A stretch of 64,000 nucleotides of DNA from a bacterium (GTDB taxonomy: Bacteria; Bacteroidota; Bacteroidia; Flavobacteriales_D; Crocinitomicaceae), in NCBI GenBank assembly GCA_024742305.1, contig JANSYQ010000007.1, positions 1-64,000 on the forward strand, in the 5' to 3' direction. Of the stretch, positions 13,863 through 56,927 are shown one piece after another. The translations under genes were made by a program, and so were the position numbers. Under the pieces are notes generated by a model. It saw only the letters and a program-made list of their open reading frames with translations, was not told the DNA's origin and searched no databases. The stretch's first letter is position 1; the number at the start of each line of letters is the position of its first letter.

Positions 13863-13930
13863 CAAAAATTGCATGTTGAGCGGGTGACTTTCGTTTCGAT
13901 ATTCACCCTCCGCCTGCGGCACCTCCCTTA

Positions 13931-13952
13931 TATCTCGACAGGCTCGATAACC
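13931..13952 (-). repeat. REP-like palindromic core (single copy)
   Basis: The reverse complement reads GGTTATCGAGCCTGTCGAGA plus TA, closely matching the cores at 51517-51544 and 51600-51627. It contains the internal palindrome TCGAGCCTGTCGA-like arms and sits in the 174-base gap between the hydrolase and the DUF1573-vWA gene. An ATTCACCC word also found in the other copies lies about 30 bases away at 13898-13908. Confidence 0.75.
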
Positions 13953-50796: not shown

Positions 50797-50828
50797 TCCT
50801 CCCAGTCCTCCTATCTCTCTATTTCTTC

Positions 50829-50836
50829 TAACTTTG
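50829..50836 (+). promoter_or_regulatory. -7 box TAACTTTG before GNAT-like gene
   Basis: TAACTTTG matches TAnnTTTG and ends four bases before the ATG at 50841. The upstream 30 bases are pyrimidine-rich with no TTG. Confidence 0.5.
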
Positions 50837-50840
50837 AAAC

Positions 50841-51434
50841 ATGACCCTCGCATCAACCGAAGACAAAGAAGAAGCCGTTCGAATTATTACCAATACGTTT
50901 GAACAAAATCCTAGCGTGAACATTGTAATTGGTCCGGGAGGAAATCGTCGAAAGAAAATTAGTCGATTGGGGAATTACGCATTTATTAAGGCGTTCAATC
51001 GTGCCGGAGCCTTCATTTCATCCAACCGAAGAGGAGCCGCACTGTGCTTTGACTCGGACGCAAAAGGAACCAACTTTGCCGAATTTTGGGCAGAACTCCG
51101 CTTTGCGTTTTCCATCCCTCCGAAAAAGGTATTCCAGACATTGAAGCGAGAGTCGTACATCAAAAAGCATCGTTTTAAAGGAAAGCACTTGTACTTTTGG
51201 TTTCTTGGTGTTGAAAAAGACGGCGGTCAGGCAGTTTTCGAACTGAAAGAATATCTTTTTGAATTATCTGAACGCAAGCAATTGCCCATCCTATTAGAAA
51301 CTTCGGTGGAAAGAAACCGAACCGTTTACGAACGCTACGGCTTTGAAGTATATCACACATGGAACGACTCAGGCGACGGAAAGACATTGTGGTTTATGAT
51401 GCGTAAGCCGATGGAAGTGATGGAGGAGGTGTAA
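50841..51434 (+). CDS. GNAT-like acyltransferase
   Basis: A 197-residue soluble protein with the outline of a GNAT enzyme: ITNTFEQNPSVNIVIG at the start, AFISSNRRGAALCFDS, then LYFWFLGVEKDGG (motif A strand) and PILLETSVERNRTVYERYGFEVYHTW (motif B) ending in LWFMMRKP. The usual Q/RxxGxG/A loop is not clear, so the call is moderate. Cytoplasmic; substrate unknown. The REP-like repeats begin 17 bases after its stop. Confidence 0.75.
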   Translation: MTLASTEDKEEAVRIITNTFEQNPSVNIVIGPGGNRRKKISRLGNYAFIKAFNRAGAFISSNRRGAALCFDSDAKGTNFAEFWAELRFAFSIPPKKVFQTLKRESYIKKHRFKGKHLYFWFLGVEKDGGQAVFELKEYLFELSERKQLPILLETSVERNRTVYERYGFEVYHTWNDSGDGKTLWFMMRKPMEVMEEV

Positions 51435-51450
51435 TTTGAAGAGCAAGGTG

Positions 51451-51544
51451 TCGGCTTCTCGACAAGCTCGAAGTCCTTTCGCTTTTGCATCGTTCATGAA
51501 ATTCACCCAGCTCGGAGGTCATCGAGCCTGTCGAGATGCCGACC
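51451..51544. repeat. REP-like inverted pair
   Basis: TCGGCTTCTCGACAAGCTCG... at 51451-51476 is the reverse complement, with about four mismatches in 26, of the core GGTCATCGAGCCTGTCGAGA... at 51517-51544. The two arms can form a long hairpin. The second arm is the first copy of an 83-bp-spaced direct repeat. Confidence 0.85.
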
Positions 51545-51644
51545 ACTAAGGTAGCAATGAAATAAGATGGTATGATTCAAGAAATTCACCCCGCAGGTAG
51601 GTCATCGAGCCTGTCGAGATGCCGACCGCGAAGGTAGAATTGAA
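51498..51644. repeat. REP-like direct repeat, two copies spaced 83 bp
   Basis: 51498-51561 and 51581-51644 align without gaps over about 64 bases. Both contain GAAATTCACCC, the core GTCATCGAGCCTGTCGAGAT and AAGGTAG. The spacing is exactly 83 bases. The cores are imperfect palindromes (TCGAGCCTGTCGA). Confidence 0.88.
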
Positions 51645-51702
51645 GCTAAACACCCAATTAAAAACCCTAAATTTTAATTATCTTAAAGTAAAACCAACCA
51701 CT

Positions 51703-51990
51703 ATGCAAATGGCTTACACCTATATTTTGAAGTGTTCAAATGGAACCTATTACACTGGAAGCACGAAGGATATACAAAGAAGATTAAAGCAACATGAAGC
51801 GGGCGAAGGAGCAAATTATACAAGGAAGCATTTGCCCGTAGAGTTAGTGTATCTTGAAAGTCATTCAAGAATAGACCACGCTTTTTTCCGTGAAAAACAG
51901 ATTCAAAACTGGAGTCAAAGGAAGAAAGAAGCGCTTATTAATGGTGACTTTAATCAACTTGTTGAGTTTGCCAAGGCAAAAAATCAATGA
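51703..51990 (+). CDS. GIY-YIG (URI family) nuclease-like protein
   Basis: A 95-residue single-domain GIY-YIG protein. The hallmark is YTYILKCSNGTYYTGST, followed by the catalytic Arg/His region RRLKQHEAGEGANYTR and the late Glu in AFFREKQIQNWSQRKKEALI. The ATG reading MQMAYTYILK is preferred; an earlier in-frame start would read through the repeat. Such domains cut DNA; stand-alone copies (UPF0213/YhbQ-like) are of unclear role. REP-like repeats lie just upstream (51451-51644) and downstream (52051-52077). Confidence 0.9.
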   Translation: MQMAYTYILKCSNGTYYTGSTKDIQRRLKQHEAGEGANYTRKHLPVELVYLESHSRIDHAFFREKQIQNWSQRKKEALINGDFNQLVEFAKAKNQ

Positions 51991-52050
51991 CTATTTTTGC
52001 TCTCGAACGAAACCTTCTGAGACCTCGTAATAAAAACATCAAGGTCATCG

Positions 52051-52077
52051 AGGTCATCGAGCTTGTCGATATGCCGA
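52051..52077. repeat. REP-like core, downstream copy
   Basis: AGGTCATCGAGCTTGTCGAT plus ATGCCGA matches the upstream cores. It is preceded by a partial AGGTCATCG and followed by degenerate ATGCCGAGATG-type repeats to about 52105, in the gap between the GIY-YIG gene and the UvrA-like gene. Confidence 0.8.
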
Positions 52078-52166
52078 TATGCCAAGATGCCGAGATGCTA
52101 GATGCCGCTCACTGATTTCAGAAGCGAAGTAAATGCCATAGTAGCGAATTTATAGATTCACCAAGA

Positions 52167-55100
52167 ATGCACAAAATCACTATAAAAAACGCCCGAACCA
52201 ACAACCTCAAAGGAGTCTCATTGGAAATTCCGCACCACCAGCTCATTGCAGTCACAGGTGTTTCCGGTTCTGGAAAATCGAGCTTAGCATTCGATGTAAT
52301 TGCCCGGGAAGGACAACGTCGCTACTTTGAGACGATGCCCGGCTTTGCACGTCAGTTTTTGGGCAAATTGAACAAACCCGAGGTGGATAGTATTGATGGT
52401 CTTTCCCCCGTTATCGCCATCGGTCAAAAAACAACAGCTTCCAATGCGCGATCTACCGTTGGAACCTTATCAGATCTCTACGATTTACTTCGTTTACTCT
52501 ACGCTCGTTTCGGAGAGTCAGAAGAACAATTACAGCTGTCACGTTCTTTGTTTTCTTTCAACTCTGAAATTGGTCAATGCCCACAATGTCGCGGTATTGG
52601 ACAGGAGGAAAAAATTGATATTGACAAGTTGGTCGTCGATCCTAGCAAAACACTTCGAGAAGGCGCCTTAGCACCAACGCTTCCAACAGGGTACATCATG
52701 TATTCGCAAGTGACAATAGATGTACTTAACCAGGTGTGTGAAGCCGAGGGGTTTAATGTCGATATTCCTTGGGAAGAGCTAACAGAAGAGCAGCAAAATG
52801 TCATTCTCTACGGAAGTGATAAAATCAAAGTACCGTTTGGAAAGCACAGTATTGAATCGCGATTAAAATGGACAGGCATCAAAGCGAAACCGAGAGAGGA
52901 AGGCTACTATAAGGGGATGATGCCCATTATGTCCGATATTCTCCGACGGGATCGAAACGCGAATATTTTGAAGTACGTTTCTTCGGTTACGTGCAGCGAT
53001 TGCCATGGGAAGCGTTTAAATCCGCAAGCGAGAAGTGTTCAACTTAATCGAATGAGTATTACCGATGTCGCTGAGCTGGAATTCACTGGTGTGAAGGATT
53101 GGATCGCCGATGCATCATTCCCCGAAAATGCAAATACCATCCTCCTAAAATTGCAAGAGAAACTCCATCTTCTCATTGATTTAGGGCTCGGGTATTTAAC
53201 TATGGATACAGCAGCAGATTCTTTATCGGCGAGTGAGGCACAGCGAATTCGGGTAATTAATCAACTCACGGCACCATTAAGCGATGTTTTGTACGTTTTG
53301 GACGAGCCAAGTATCGGTTTGCACCCAACCGAAAATCGAAAAATGATTGCACACTTGCACGTATTGGTCAACCGTGGTAATACAGTGCTTGTGGTGGAAC
53401 ACGACTTGGAAACAATTCGAAGTGCCGATTGGATCATTGACATCGGACCAAAGGCCGGGTTGTATGGTGGTGAACTGCTATTTAACGGACCGATTCAGAA
53501 ATTCTTGGAAAGCAATTTAGACAACAGTCTTACCTTGCAGGCACTCAAAAACAGTGCTACTTCGACACAAGCTGCAGCGAAGACAACAGAAAAAAAATTA
53601 CCCAGCAATAGTTTCGTTCTGAACAACTGTCACACTGGTAATCTCAAAAATATTGATGTACGATTTCTACTCGGAGGGCTGAACAGTATCAGTGGTAAGT
53701 CCGGTTCAGGAACACGTCCGTTGGTGCAGGAACTACGAAATAGGTTAGAATCACGAAAGGAGTCTGACGGTAGCGTTGCGTTTTCCCATGAGGATGAAAT
53801 AAAGAATATAATTTTTGTTGATCAATCGCCTATCGGTCGCACGCCGAGGAGCAATCCTGCTACATATTTAGGCATTTCAGATGACATCCGCGATTTATAC
53901 GCCTCCTTGGACACCGCGAAAAAGGCCAAGTTCACCAAGTCTCGATTCTCCTTTAATAACAAAGGCGGTCGTTGTGAAACATGTCAGGGAGCCGGAAAAA
54001 TTCAAGTGGGAATGCACTTTTTAGGCAACATCGATTTGAAGTGCGGGACGTGTGGAGGCGATCGCTTCAACAAAGAAACATTGGCAATTCACTATCAAGG
54101 AAAGTCCATCGCGGATGTATATCGCATGTCGGTGAATGAAGCATTGGATTTCTTTCAGGATACAACTAACAAAACAGTAAAACGCCTTCGTAAAGGAGTC
54201 GAAATTTTACAGGAAATTGGATTGGGCTACCTTACTTTGGGTCAGTCATCAACCACTCTTTCCGGCGGTGAAGCACAACGAATTAAAATCGCTAATCAGC
54301 TCCAAAAGAAAAGCTCAGGAAAGGGTCTTTTCTTACTGATGGAACCAAGTATCGGTCTGCATCATTCCGATATTCAAACGCTTTTGAAGATGTTCGAACG
54401 GATCAAATCGAACGGAAATACAATTGTTTGCGTCGAACAAGATGAGCGCATCATCAGCGAATCTGACTGGCACATCGAATTGGGCCCTGAAGGGGGGAAA
54501 CAGGGAGGTGAAATCATCTATCAAGGAAACCCACGAACATCACATTTGGAAGAGTTGCCCCTTTCCGAAAATAGAAAAATCGAAAGCGTAACAAACCAAC
54601 GAATCGAACTTCAAGGAGTTCATACGAACGGTCTTAAAAACGTGGATGTATCCATTCCTAAACAACAACTAACGGTAGTGACGGGCGTTTCAGGCAGTGG
54701 GAAATCCTCATTGGTTTACGATACCTTGTTTTCCGAAGCAAGTGCGCGTTTCTCTGAGTCACTTTCCACTTACAGCCGTAGCTTGGTGCAACAAAACAGC
54801 GTTGCGAGGCTAGACAATTTCTCAGGAATGACGCCCGCAGTTGCGCTGAGAAGAAGAAATCGGCAAAATAATAAGCGATCTACGGTAGGAACGCTCACAG
54901 GAATTTACGATCATTTTCGTTTGTTGATTGCCAGAGTGGCTGACGAAGATTACAGTACCATCAGCGCACAGCATTTTTCCTTTAATCATCATTTGGGAGC
55001 CTGTCCAATGTGCAAAGGGATGGGCGTTGTGGAAGCCTGCGATCCCAACCTAGTTGTCATCGAGCCAAGTAAAAATATTTGGGAGGGCGCACTCTCAGAA

Positions 55101-56927
55101 AATAAGTCACTAAAGTATTATTCCAACCCCGACGGTCAATTCATGGCGACTTTGCAAACAATTGCTCAACAGCGTAATTGGGACATATTCAAGCCATGGC
55201 GCGCACTCTCGGAAGAAATTCAACAAGTAATTCTTTACGGAACGGGAGATGAACAATGGAAGGTAACGTGGAACTTCAAGAACAAATCGCGGTCGGGTGT
55301 TCAAGAACTAGAAATGAAGTGGCTTGGACTTTGCGGGTATATAAATGATGAATTTGAGCGCAAACGACAGAATAAAAACATCCAATCTTTGGAGGCATTG
55401 CTTCACGATGTTACCTGTCCAACGTGTGCAGGAAGTCGTTTGAAATCTGAATTGTTGTCGATACAATTCCTCGACAAAAATATTGCAGAGTGGATGCGGT
55501 TAACCGTTTCTGAGATGCGTGAACTGTTGGAAGATATTCCCAAGATTAAGGACGCGAAAACGAAGGTAGTTGCCAAAAAGGTGAGCCCTTCGATTCTAAC
55601 ACAATTGGCTGTTCTGGAAAACTTAGGTTTGAGTTATTTGAATATGGATCGGGGCGTTGCGACACTTTCCGGAGGAGAGTATCAACGGGTTTTGCTGTCT
55701 GGTCAGCTGGACTCTAACTTAAATGGCGTAACGTACATTCTTGATGAACCAACCATCGGTTTAGATCAACAGCAAGTCAAAACGCTCGAAAAGTTATTGC
55801 GTGGAATTATCAAACATGGCAATACAGTAGTTGTTGTAGAGCACGATCCTCAGTTTATTCAATTTGCCGACTACATAATCGAAATGGGACCGGAAGCTGG
55901 AGAAAATGGTGGTCAGGTGATATTTCAAGGGGATCAGAATGCACTGCTGAAGAACAGAAATACCAAAACGTATAGTCTTTTGCATGAAAATGTGAGTTTG
56001 AGAAAGATTCAGGGGCAATCGAGCGAAAGTTTTACCGTTCACAAGGCATCGGCGAACAACTTAAAAAACATTGATGTAAGGTTCCAACTCGGTGCATTTA
56101 CAGTGATTTCGGGTGTTTCGGGAAGTGGAAAAACGAGTTTGATGCGCGATGTTTTGTATCAATCCACTCTGAGGAAAAGACCTGTTCATTGCGCATCCAT
56201 AACCGGTGCCAACCTATTTGAAGAGTTCCAAACTGTCTACATTGACCAGCAACCCTTGGCAACGACTCGCGCCATGACACCAGCGGGATTTTTGGGGATT
56301 TTAGACGCACTTCAAGCCATATATTCTAAAGTGGACGAAGCCAAAAGCACCGGATTGAAGAAATCAGATTTCAGTTATTTGAGTAAAAAGGGAAAATGTC
56401 CTACATGTGCCGGAAATGGGAGGGTGAAAACCAGCCTCGATTTCATGAGTGATGTGTGGACCGATTGCGATACGTGCTTCGGAAGTCGTTACAGTGAGGA
56501 TATAAATGCCATTTTGTGGCGAGAACGGTCCATCGGAGAATTGCTCCAGTTGACCATCGATCAATCTATGGAATTTTTAGCAGATCAGAAAATTTCAGGA
56601 ACACTTCAGCTTCTCATAAAATTAGGACTTGGGCACATCCGATTGGGTCAGCCAGCGAATACACTTTCAGGAGGTGAGTCCCAAAGAGTGAAATTGGCAA
56701 AGGCACTCGTCACTTCATCTCATCTTCCACGATTGTTTCTCTTGGATGAACCCGGAACAGGGTTGCATGTTCATGATCTTCAGCGTTTACTTGCCGTTTT
56801 TCAGGAAATTATCGACGGCGGAGACACAATCATTAGCATAGATCACAATCAACAGCTTATTGCAAGTGCGAGTCACGAAATCAAATTGGGTCCCGGCAGC
56901 GGTCAAAATGGAGGGCGACTTCAATGA
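52167..56927 (+). CDS. tandem UvrA-like ABC ATPase (four NBDs, no UvrB-binding domain)
   Basis: A 1586-residue protein made of two UvrA-like units fused head to tail (about 1-815 and 816-1586). Walker A motifs start at 31 (GVSGSGKSS), 510 (GKSGSGTRP, catalytic Lys lost), 840 (GVSGSGKSS) and 1316 (GVSGSGKTS). ABC signatures: SLSASE (352-357, degenerate), LSGGE at 698, 1167 and 1500. Walker B of NBD2 has Met725 in place of Asp (LLMEPS). Zinc motifs are present (CETCQG...CGTCGG, CPTCAG...CDTCFG). The roughly 480-residue Walker A spacing is about 130 less than in UvrA; LLYARFGE runs almost directly into FSFNSEIGQCPQC, so the UvrB-binding domain is missing, as in UvrA2-like proteins. Probably a DNA-binding protector, not a repair UvrA. 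Confidence 0.93.
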   Translation: MHKITIKNARTNNLKGVSLEIPHHQLIAVTGVSGSGKSSLAFDVIAREGQRRYFETMPGFARQFLGKLNKPEVDSIDGLSPVIAIGQKTTASNARSTVGTLSDLYDLLRLLYARFGESEEQLQLSRSLFSFNSEIGQCPQCRGIGQEEKIDIDKLVVDPSKTLREGALAPTLPTGYIMYSQVTIDVLNQVCEAEGFNVDIPWEELTEEQQNVILYGSDKIKVPFGKHSIESRLKWTGIKAKPREEGYYKGMMPIMSDILRRDRNANILKYVSSVTCSDCHGKRLNPQARSVQLNRMSITDVAELEFTGVKDWIADASFPENANTILLKLQEKLHLLIDLGLGYLTMDTAADSLSASEAQRIRVINQLTAPLSDVLYVLDEPSIGLHPTENRKMIAHLHVLVNRGNTVLVVEHDLETIRSADWIIDIGPKAGLYGGELLFNGPIQKFLESNLDNSLTLQALKNSATSTQAAAKTTEKKLPSNSFVLNNCHTGNLKNIDVRFLLGGLNSISGKSGSGTRPLVQELRNRLESRKESDGSVAFSHEDEIKNIIFVDQSPIGRTPRSNPATYLGISDDIRDLYASLDTAKKAKFTKSRFSFNNKGGRCETCQGAGKIQVGMHFLGNIDLKCGTCGGDRFNKETLAIHYQGKSIADVYRMSVNEALDFFQDTTNKTVKRLRKGVEILQEIGLGYLTLGQSSTTLSGGEAQRIKIANQLQKKSSGKGLFLLMEPSIGLHHSDIQTLLKMFERIKSNGNTIVCVEQDERIISESDWHIELGPEGGKQGGEIIYQGNPRTSHLEELPLSENRKIESVTNQRIELQGVHTNGLKNVDVSIPKQQLTVVTGVSGSGKSSLVYDTLFSEASARFSESLSTYSRSLVQQNSVARLDNFSGMTPAVALRRRNRQNNKRSTVGTLTGIYDHFRLLIARVADEDYSTISAQHFSFNHHLGACPMCKGMGVVEACDPNLVVIEPSKNIWEGALSENKSLKYYSNPDGQFMATLQTIAQQRNWDIFKPWRALSEEIQQVILYGTGDEQWKVTWNFKNKSRSGVQELEMKWLGLCGYINDEFERKRQNKNIQSLEALLHDVTCPTCAGSRLKSELLSIQFLDKNIAEWMRLTVSEMRELLEDIPKIKDAKTKVVAKKVSPSILTQLAVLENLGLSYLNMDRGVATLSGGEYQRVLLSGQLDSNLNGVTYILDEPTIGLDQQQVKTLEKLLRGIIKHGNTVVVVEHDPQFIQFADYIIEMGPEAGENGGQVIFQGDQNALLKNRNTKTYSLLHENVSLRKIQGQSSESFTVHKASANNLKNIDVRFQLGAFTVISGVSGSGKTSLMRDVLYQSTLRKRPVHCASITGANLFEEFQTVYIDQQPLATTRAMTPAGFLGILDALQAIYSKVDEAKSTGLKKSDFSYLSKKGKCPTCAGNGRVKTSLDFMSDVWTDCDTCFGSRYSEDINAILWRERSIGELLQLTIDQSMEFLADQKISGTLQLLIKLGLGHIRLGQPANTLSGGESQRVKLAKALVTSSHLPRLFLLDEPGTGLHVHDLQRLLAVFQEIIDGGDTIISIDHNQQLIASASHEIKLGPGSGQNGGRLQ

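Follow-up and report, generated by a model that had tools for sequence, protein, structure and literature searches.

Is the small GIY-YIG gene of this locus a working partner of the REP-like palindromes around it, or is it merely tolerated beside them? The question arises from the window, the 64-kb stretch of DNA analysed here, in which a stand-alone gene for a 95-amino acid GIY-YIG protein with a UPF0213-like fold (51703-51990, + strand; a candidate REP-associated nuclease) is bracketed by four copies of GGTCATCGAGCYTGTCGAGATGCC, two exact and two degenerate. An earlier note on this DNA had counted at least four core copies on both sides of the gene, and they are indeed present, with cores starting at 51457, 51517, 51600, and 52052. 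The leftmost copy (51451-51477, - strand; 20-nt core 51457-51476, three mismatches) is degenerate outside the 15-nt core and opposite in orientation to the others. The next two, at 51515-51542 (+; core 51517-51536) and 51598-51625 (+; core 51600-51619), have exact cores with zero mismatches, and the fourth, at 52050-52077 (+; core 52052-52071, two mismatches), is degenerate, with a decayed tail extending to about 52105. The distant copy that the note had placed at 13931-13952 was also recovered: its core (13933-13952, - strand, one mismatch) sits at the tip of a host hairpin (CTTCCC...AGGGAGG) between genes of 253 and 467 amino acids. Searching the 64 kb with GGTCATCGAGCCTGTCGAGA, allowing up to three mismatches, gave five occurrences, compared with a mean of 0.00 in 100 dinucleotide shuffles.

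The arrangement of these copies is orderly. The outermost two (51451-51477 and 52051-52077) are 85% complementary over 27 nt with 573 nt between them and are mutually inverted; thus, the GIY-YIG gene lies between inverted repeats. The copy at 51598-51625 falls in the second copy of a duplication (51493-51561 and 51576-51644; 87% identical) that had been described as an 83-bp direct repeat; it is a direct repeat with a period of 83 bp, but its length is 69 nt. The inverted copy does form the hairpin claimed for it, in that the inward-facing pair made by 51451-51477 and 51515-51542 folds as a unit (51440-51545, -23.6 kcal/mol, z -3.8 relative to shuffles). Folded alone, none of the four single elements did better than shuffles (z from -1.03 to 0.21). 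The palindrome-wrapped gene is a real feature of the window and, as the following comparisons show, a general one.

A search of the whole genome for the core, as the note had suggested, found 46 copies of the 15-nt sequence TCGAGCYTGTCGAGA (18 on the + strand, 28 on the - strand) in 4.09 Mb and 56 contigs, three of them at the GIY-YIG gene; the reversed core, used as a control in the same genome, gave none. Alignment of the 46 copies yields the unit consensus (A/C)GGTCA-TCGAGCYTGTCGAGA-TGCC. Every copy has G as its unpaired head base at -5, and 40 of them have G at -4 as well. Both outer pairs covary, the first being A-T in 36 copies, T-A in five, G-C in four, and unpaired in one, and the second C-G in 41, T-A in four, and unpaired in one, as expected of a hairpin under constraint whose head is unpaired. 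This genome has eight pairs of exact cores spaced 160 bp or less apart; five are tail-to-tail, two head-to-head, and one same-way. Seven of the 46 exact copies lie within 40 kb on one contig (C9, 135055-175107); the GIY-YIG gene is on a different contig.

The gene product is a GIY-YIG protein by profile, conserved residues, and predicted fold, and a candidate nuclease. It matches PF01541 at 67.2 bits (Pfam cut-off 22.6); its Pfam matches are GIY-YIG and T5orf172 only, with no HUH/Y1 transposase domain. Across alignments of 30 and 37 sequences, Y7, Y17, R27, H31, and E64 do not vary, and we take the conserved Tyr, Tyr, Arg, and Glu to be the active-site residues. The start codon is probably at 51703 or 51709, within a longer open frame that begins inside the repeat at 51619. 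An AlphaFold model (mean pLDDT 91.0) has as its closest PDB entries the UPF0213 structures 1zg2 and 1ywl, followed by Slx1 (Foldseek probability 1.00, E 0.0057 and above). The window protein resembles the small UPF0213/COG2827 proteins in sequence and fold; unlike the window gene, however, the Klebsiella yhbQ-type and Bacillus yazA genes of this kind reside in gene clusters without palindromes. Slx1 is, according to its entry titles, a structure-specific nuclease for branched DNA, whereas the window protein is a lone domain and a candidate nuclease. One stand-alone GIY-YIG gene was found in the window genome, where the only other matches are open frames of 603 and 469 amino acids, presumably UvrC and a polymerase-type fusion. 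A phage origin was considered and rejected, in that the related Azospirillum protein had no phage match and the window protein matched 23 records, all below 60% identity; an anti-phage role was likewise set aside, with no PADLOC match.

To what extent do relatives of the gene share this setting? A scan of named genomes with the 30-member alignment returned at least 561 relatives, of which the best 80 were kept. Judged by their record titles, these loci span Bacteroidota, Chlorobi, Ignavibacteria, Fibrobacter, Calditrichota, Spirochaetes, delta- and gammaproteobacteria, and others, and many come from metagenome bins. When no motif was assumed, median repeat coverage was 0.143 and 0.172 in the DNA adjoining the gene versus 0.029 more than 2 kb away. 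The palindromes at these relatives have a common shape, with a variable outer stem, YGAG, 4-7 nt, and CGAR. Such a YGAG..CGAR palindrome occurs within 600 bp of the gene in 68 of the best 80 loci (of at least 561), and on both sides in 36, as counted with a strict motif derived partly from these same loci and from the order-search loci (L034-L063) to which it was also applied. Of the 304 copies at the 80 loci, 175 are no more than 200 bp from the gene, and the density is 2.63 per kb near it versus 0.057 per kb beyond 2 kb. The 124 pairs of neighbouring copies near the gene comprise 70 head-to-head, 26 tail-to-tail, and 28 same-way arrangements.

Such clustering might be a matter of chance or composition, if REPs, which are intergenic by nature, accumulate in any intergenic region and the gene simply happens to be intergenic. 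Restriction to DNA outside called open reading frames does lower the enrichment, from 46-fold to 12.8-fold (3.98 versus 0.311 per kb, based on 95 near copies; 144 of 239 near copies fall inside mechanically called frames of at least 80 amino acids). Nevertheless, random distal intergenic points carried a palindrome in a mean of only 4.4 and a maximum of 11 of 80 cases over 1000 draws, compared with 68 of 80 at the gene, and five further GIY-YIG genes of the stand-alone kind (one of Klebsiella yhbQ type, Bacillus yazA, and three distant paralogues) had no palindromes. We therefore strongly disfavour this explanation and regard it as very improbable. UvrC and the polymerase-type fusion also lacked palindromes, but they are weak controls because the 600 bp tested around their domains lie mostly inside these long genes.

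The strict motif does not cover every locus. It is absent from 12 of the 80, although by eye L066, L101, L117, L129, and L134 carry a longer form with an inner hairpin. In a search of the window's order, it was present at 14 and absent at eight of the 22 strong matches of the window's own type (L034-L055), and it occurred at two of eight loci of a second subfamily (GITNN...DSYTFSRRP; L056-L063). Two members of that subfamily, L061 and L063, have longer repeats of a different sort at their flanks (GTATCGAGA-type), which may be a further class of this kind. At L042 and L045, the GIY-YIG open frames reach 247 and 375 amino acids, apparently because downstream repeats are read in frame. A generic core, TGAGCN{2,3}GYCGAA, was also counted across 150 genomes of the order; the median net number of copies per Mb was 4.5 in the 22 genomes with a strong match, 2.6 in the 11 with a type-B match, and 0.9 in the remaining 117 (22 versus 117, Mann-Whitney p 2e-6). 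High numbers of this core also occur in several genomes that lack a strong GIY-YIG match, with 13-20 net copies per Mb in G119, G124, and G052; thus, we do not base the main case on this correlation.

Searching 34 genomes of the window's genus for core and gene, and examining the window and 16 others of 23 listed matches, we obtained 13 strong gene matches besides the window (at least 106 bits). Twelve of these have the motif within 800 bp of the gene, with core classes that differ between genes; the thirteenth (L197) is accompanied by four copies of TGAGCGCAGTCGAA, whose outer stem is looser. The window's own core stands four times beside the gene of G244, out of 19 copies in that genome, and two of the three exact copies in G261 are beside its gene. 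G253 has two GIY-YIG genes, each with a different repeat class. Three weak, distant paralogues within the genus have no palindromes. The earlier note held that the association would be chance if related genomes carried the gene without repeats or if the repeats had no link to such genes. For the most part neither pattern is seen: repeats accompany the gene in 12 of 13 genus matches, the cases of the first pattern being the loci in the wider searches that lack the strict motif (12 of 80 and 8 of 22), and the exception under the second is G243 (96% complete), which has 17 core copies and no strong GIY-YIG match.

The class of repeat at a gene is related to the protein that the gene encodes. On a tree of 128 proteins (95 columns, with many forks unresolved and the classes 'CGTC' and 'long' assigned by hand), repeat class requires 28 changes, compared with a mean of 56.1 after shuffling, and none of 200 shuffles was as low. 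The 12 CGTC rows form a single branch (SH-aLRT 91), whereas the small T13 class shows no clustering on this tree. The class at the gene is also reflected, in part, in the rest of the genome. Three core classes were counted in 49 genomes, leaving out copies located up to 1.5 kb from the gene. The class seen at the gene then had a mean rank of 0.66 versus 0.51 expected (0 of 10,000 permutations), and it was the commonest class elsewhere in 30 of 49 genomes versus 38% expected (1 of 10,000 permutations); the sampled genomes are related, so these permutation figures are optimistic and overstate independence. The remaining 19 genomes, such as L118 and L104, are mismatched. In a few genomes nearly all counted class copies are at the gene itself (seven of seven in L100, two of two in L079, five of six in L136, and nine of 12 in L078). 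Repeat class thus follows the protein tree and, in part, the genome-wide stock.

These results disfavour the suggestion in the earlier note that the gene is merely tolerated beside the repeats: class matching, clustering on the tree, and genomes with nearly all counted copies at the gene all speak against it. A more specific version would make the protein a structure-specific repair enzyme for cruciforms or hairpins, tolerated or selected beside hairpin-rich DNA, with the repeats moved by other means. The resemblance of its fold to Slx1, a branched-DNA nuclease, and the presence of one stand-alone gene in the window genome would suit such an enzyme. Yet a repair function does not predict that repeat class should match the protein clade or the genome-wide stock, nor that gene and repeats should be present together where the same site in relatives lacks both (see below), and the yhbQ and yazA examples have no palindromes. 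We consider a repair role improbable.

Two comparisons show sites with and without the unit. The Azospirillum lipoferum gene occupies the 617-bp spacer that separates sufB from sufC, accompanied by two palindromes on either flank; in A. ramasamyi and strain B510 the sufB-sufC spacers are 91 and 129 bp and the unit is absent, and every one of the 11 other Azospirillum records listed, out of 23 that matched, likewise has a shorter span. A GIY-YIG unit between sufB and sufC is found at L152 and L160, in A. lipoferum and, judging by the flanking DNA, in Shinella sp. PSBB067. In the window, 1370 bp (50797-52166, holding a 197-amino acid open frame, the GIY-YIG gene, and the palindromes) separate a 140-amino acid gene from a UvrA-like gene. 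These flanking genes are 180 bp apart in the same-genus genome G217, whose spacer lacks the 197-amino acid frame, the GIY-YIG gene, and the GAGCYTGTCGA core, and whose UvrA-like protein is 89% identical to that of the window over the first 250 amino acids. The difference reflects either a gain in the window or a loss in G217. The 197-amino acid frame (50841-51434), inside the stretch absent from G217, has no Pfam match and is unrelated; we take its end to resemble an acetyltransferase. The UvrA-like protein (52167-56927) has 1586 amino acids and the appearance of two tandemly joined UvrA halves; comparably long forms (ca. 1500-1600 amino acids) are also encoded by G217, by G223, and by several members of another genus in the family.

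GIY-YIG is a classic homing-endonuclease fold, and the gene might accordingly be a homing-type parasite that cuts REPs and inserts into pre-existing clusters, the repeats being independent of it. One of two weak PHROG matches of the protein is to a phage homing endonuclease (E 0.0012), the repeats occur in genomes without a strong GIY-YIG match, and REPs have been reported to serve as insertion-sequence targets (PMC1525189). Several observations argue the other way. In the four genomes with nearly all counted copies at the gene (L100, L079, L136, and L078) there is, for that reason, little dispersed target stock; the two genes of G253 have separate repeat classes; the gene is bracketed on both sides in 36 of the 80 loci; and the Azospirillum comparison suggests that when the gene arrives at a palindrome-free site, its flanking palindromes come with it. 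The gene is not in an intron, an intein, or a conserved target gene, being intergenic both in the window and between sufB and sufC of A. lipoferum. On this evidence homing is unlikely.

The repeats of Proteobacteria connect these observations to a published family. We examined 19 loci from a plasmid collection, chosen by us for breadth (eight of 40 and 11 of 32 listed matches, L161 being a near-duplicate of L162). In 14 of the 19, a strict CGTC or YGAG palindrome occurs no more than 600 bp from the gene, with such palindromes on both sides in 11; the other five lack this strict form. By eye, palindromes are present on both sides at L144, L147 (Novosphingobium), and L151, and none were visible at L146 and L150. 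Among the flanking repeats are CGTCATCCCCGCGAAGGCGGGGATCCAG (A. lipoferum), CGTCATTCCCGCGCAGGCGGGAATCTAG (a Neisseria gonorrhoeae record), and CCTCATTCCTGTGCTCGTCACAGGAATCCAG (Sinorhizobium meliloti), and TGTCATTCTGAGTGAAACGAAGAATC of Planktothrix combines a TGTC tag with a TGAG..CGAA core. The Planktothrix gene and its repeats (L158) lie within a DISARM gene cluster, ahead of drmA. In the available passages of Di Nocera et al. 2013 (PMC3733652), one of the two large published REP superfamilies, the CGTC repeats, is reported as apparently lacking a dedicated transposase, and the CGTC repeats of Neisseria are equated with dRS3. Those passages describe an unpaired xxTC head, A-T first stem pairs, and a loop of 4-5 nt, and the repeats flanking the GIY-YIG genes of Novosphingobium, Sinorhizobium, Azospirillum, and Neisseria fit this written description.

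The window repeat shares part of the CGTC description as given there (PMC3733652), namely the A-T first stem pair (36 of 46 copies) and the short loop (5 nt, compared with 4-5 nt), and its unpaired head resembles the xxTC form; the tag is CGTC (or TGTC, CCTC) in the published repeats and GGTC or GGAC in most copies of the window genome. It departs from the description in the stem, uninterrupted over 8-9 bp in CGTC repeats but imperfect, bulged, and weakly folding alone in the window; in the tail, CCA versus mostly GCC; and in the dimers, mostly head-to-head versus five of eight tail-to-tail and two of eight head-to-head. Because stem, tail, and dimer arrangement differ, we call the window repeat CGTC-like and do not assign it to the CGTC REPs.

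A precedent for such a unit is RAYT/TnpA-REP (the REPtron), as described in part in PMC2817692: flanking inverted palindromes, dispersed copies, repeats matched to the protein, and, in some genomes, local accumulation near the gene are all shared with the GIY-YIG unit. The enzymes differ, RAYT being an HUH/Y1 transposase acting with GTAG REPs, whereas here a GIY-YIG candidate nuclease accompanies repeats with a GG or CG head. The link between a stand-alone GIY-YIG nuclease and REP-like palindromes that the earlier note proposed is borne out by the 80 loci, the 13 genus matches, and the CGTC-type repeats of Proteobacteria; that the nuclease moves the repeats is something that we infer. With moderate confidence, we favour a REP-plus-nuclease unit of the REPtron kind, in which a single-copy UPF0213-like GIY-YIG nuclease would act on its paired flanking palindromes while non-autonomous copies are scattered through the genome. 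Against this stand the genomes rich in copies but without a strong GIY-YIG match, the loci that lack the strict motif, the genomes whose commonest class elsewhere differs from that at the gene, the unclustered T13 class, the mostly tail-to-tail pairs of the window genome, and the unrelated 197-amino acid frame in the 1370-bp stretch; no target duplication or excision product was seen. Our best reading is that this unit would work like RAYT and its REPs with an unrelated nuclease, cleavage and mobilisation included, and that the nuclease would supply the enzyme that CGTC repeats reportedly lack in the passages of PMC3733652. We give an even chance to the broader proposal that bacteria have a second REP world, independent of RAYT (CGTC/dRS3 repeats together with the YGAG..CGAR repeats of Bacteroidota and other phyla), whose dedicated enzymes are small GIY-YIG nucleases that spread the repeats by cutting and inserting at hairpin tips.

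The GIY-YIG nuclease may thus be the partner that a large group of hairpin repeats in bacteria has seemed to lack. No link between GIY-YIG proteins and REPs was found in the titles or abstract openings of the open-access papers listed; GIY-YIG receives no mention in the passages of PMC3733652, and 'GIY' is absent from the available portions of the REP papers PMC12306157 and PMC5082802. REPs are widespread bacterial repeats, and a candidate protein with matched substrates is at hand in the culturable Azospirillum, Sinorhizobium, and Novosphingobium, making the question directly testable. If the reading is correct, unrelated nucleases have on at least two occasions given rise to a lifestyle of domesticated nuclease with miniature palindromes, widespread small proteins annotated only as 'GIY-YIG nuclease family protein' gain a role, and a question left open in print in 2013 is answered.

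As a mechanism for the REP-plus-nuclease unit, we propose that the nuclease would recognise the folded palindrome, that is, the unpaired GG or CG head and the YGAG..CGAR hairpin, when it is extruded or single-stranded, much as Slx1-type GIY-YIG enzymes recognise branched DNA. It would then cut at or beside the palindrome, after which repair or strand transfer could copy or insert palindromes, favouring the tips of other hairpins, for example terminators.

The surroundings of the window-genome copies bear on this last step. Across the 46 copies, the left flank pairs with the right at -8.4 kcal/mol, versus -6.0 kcal/mol for shuffled flanks (RNA parameters). Among the 23 copies whose flanks are free of REPs, defined as lacking REP-like words of our choosing, 11 reach -10 kcal/mol, indicating an enclosing hairpin, versus 2.6 expected (0 of 10,000 shuffles); 10% of 741 random places in the same loci reach this value. 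A cruder exact-stem test for insertion into host hairpins gave eight of 46 copies (shuffled mean 7.5%, maximum 19.6%). That copies in the window genome prefer hairpin tips fits structure-directed insertion, and it could also reflect selection for larger hairpins. At L021 and L027, REPs of the window genome occupy the loops of terminator-like stems followed by runs of T. Two copies, at 13933 and L211, are nested in a second repeat family. For the former, positions 13903-13928 of the window belong to this other host family (CACCCTCCGCCTGCGGCACCTCCCT), with the REP inside its hairpin; among the matches listed (10 for each genome), CACCCTCCGCCTGCGGCACCTCCCT occurs at eight other places in G217 and at seven in G243.
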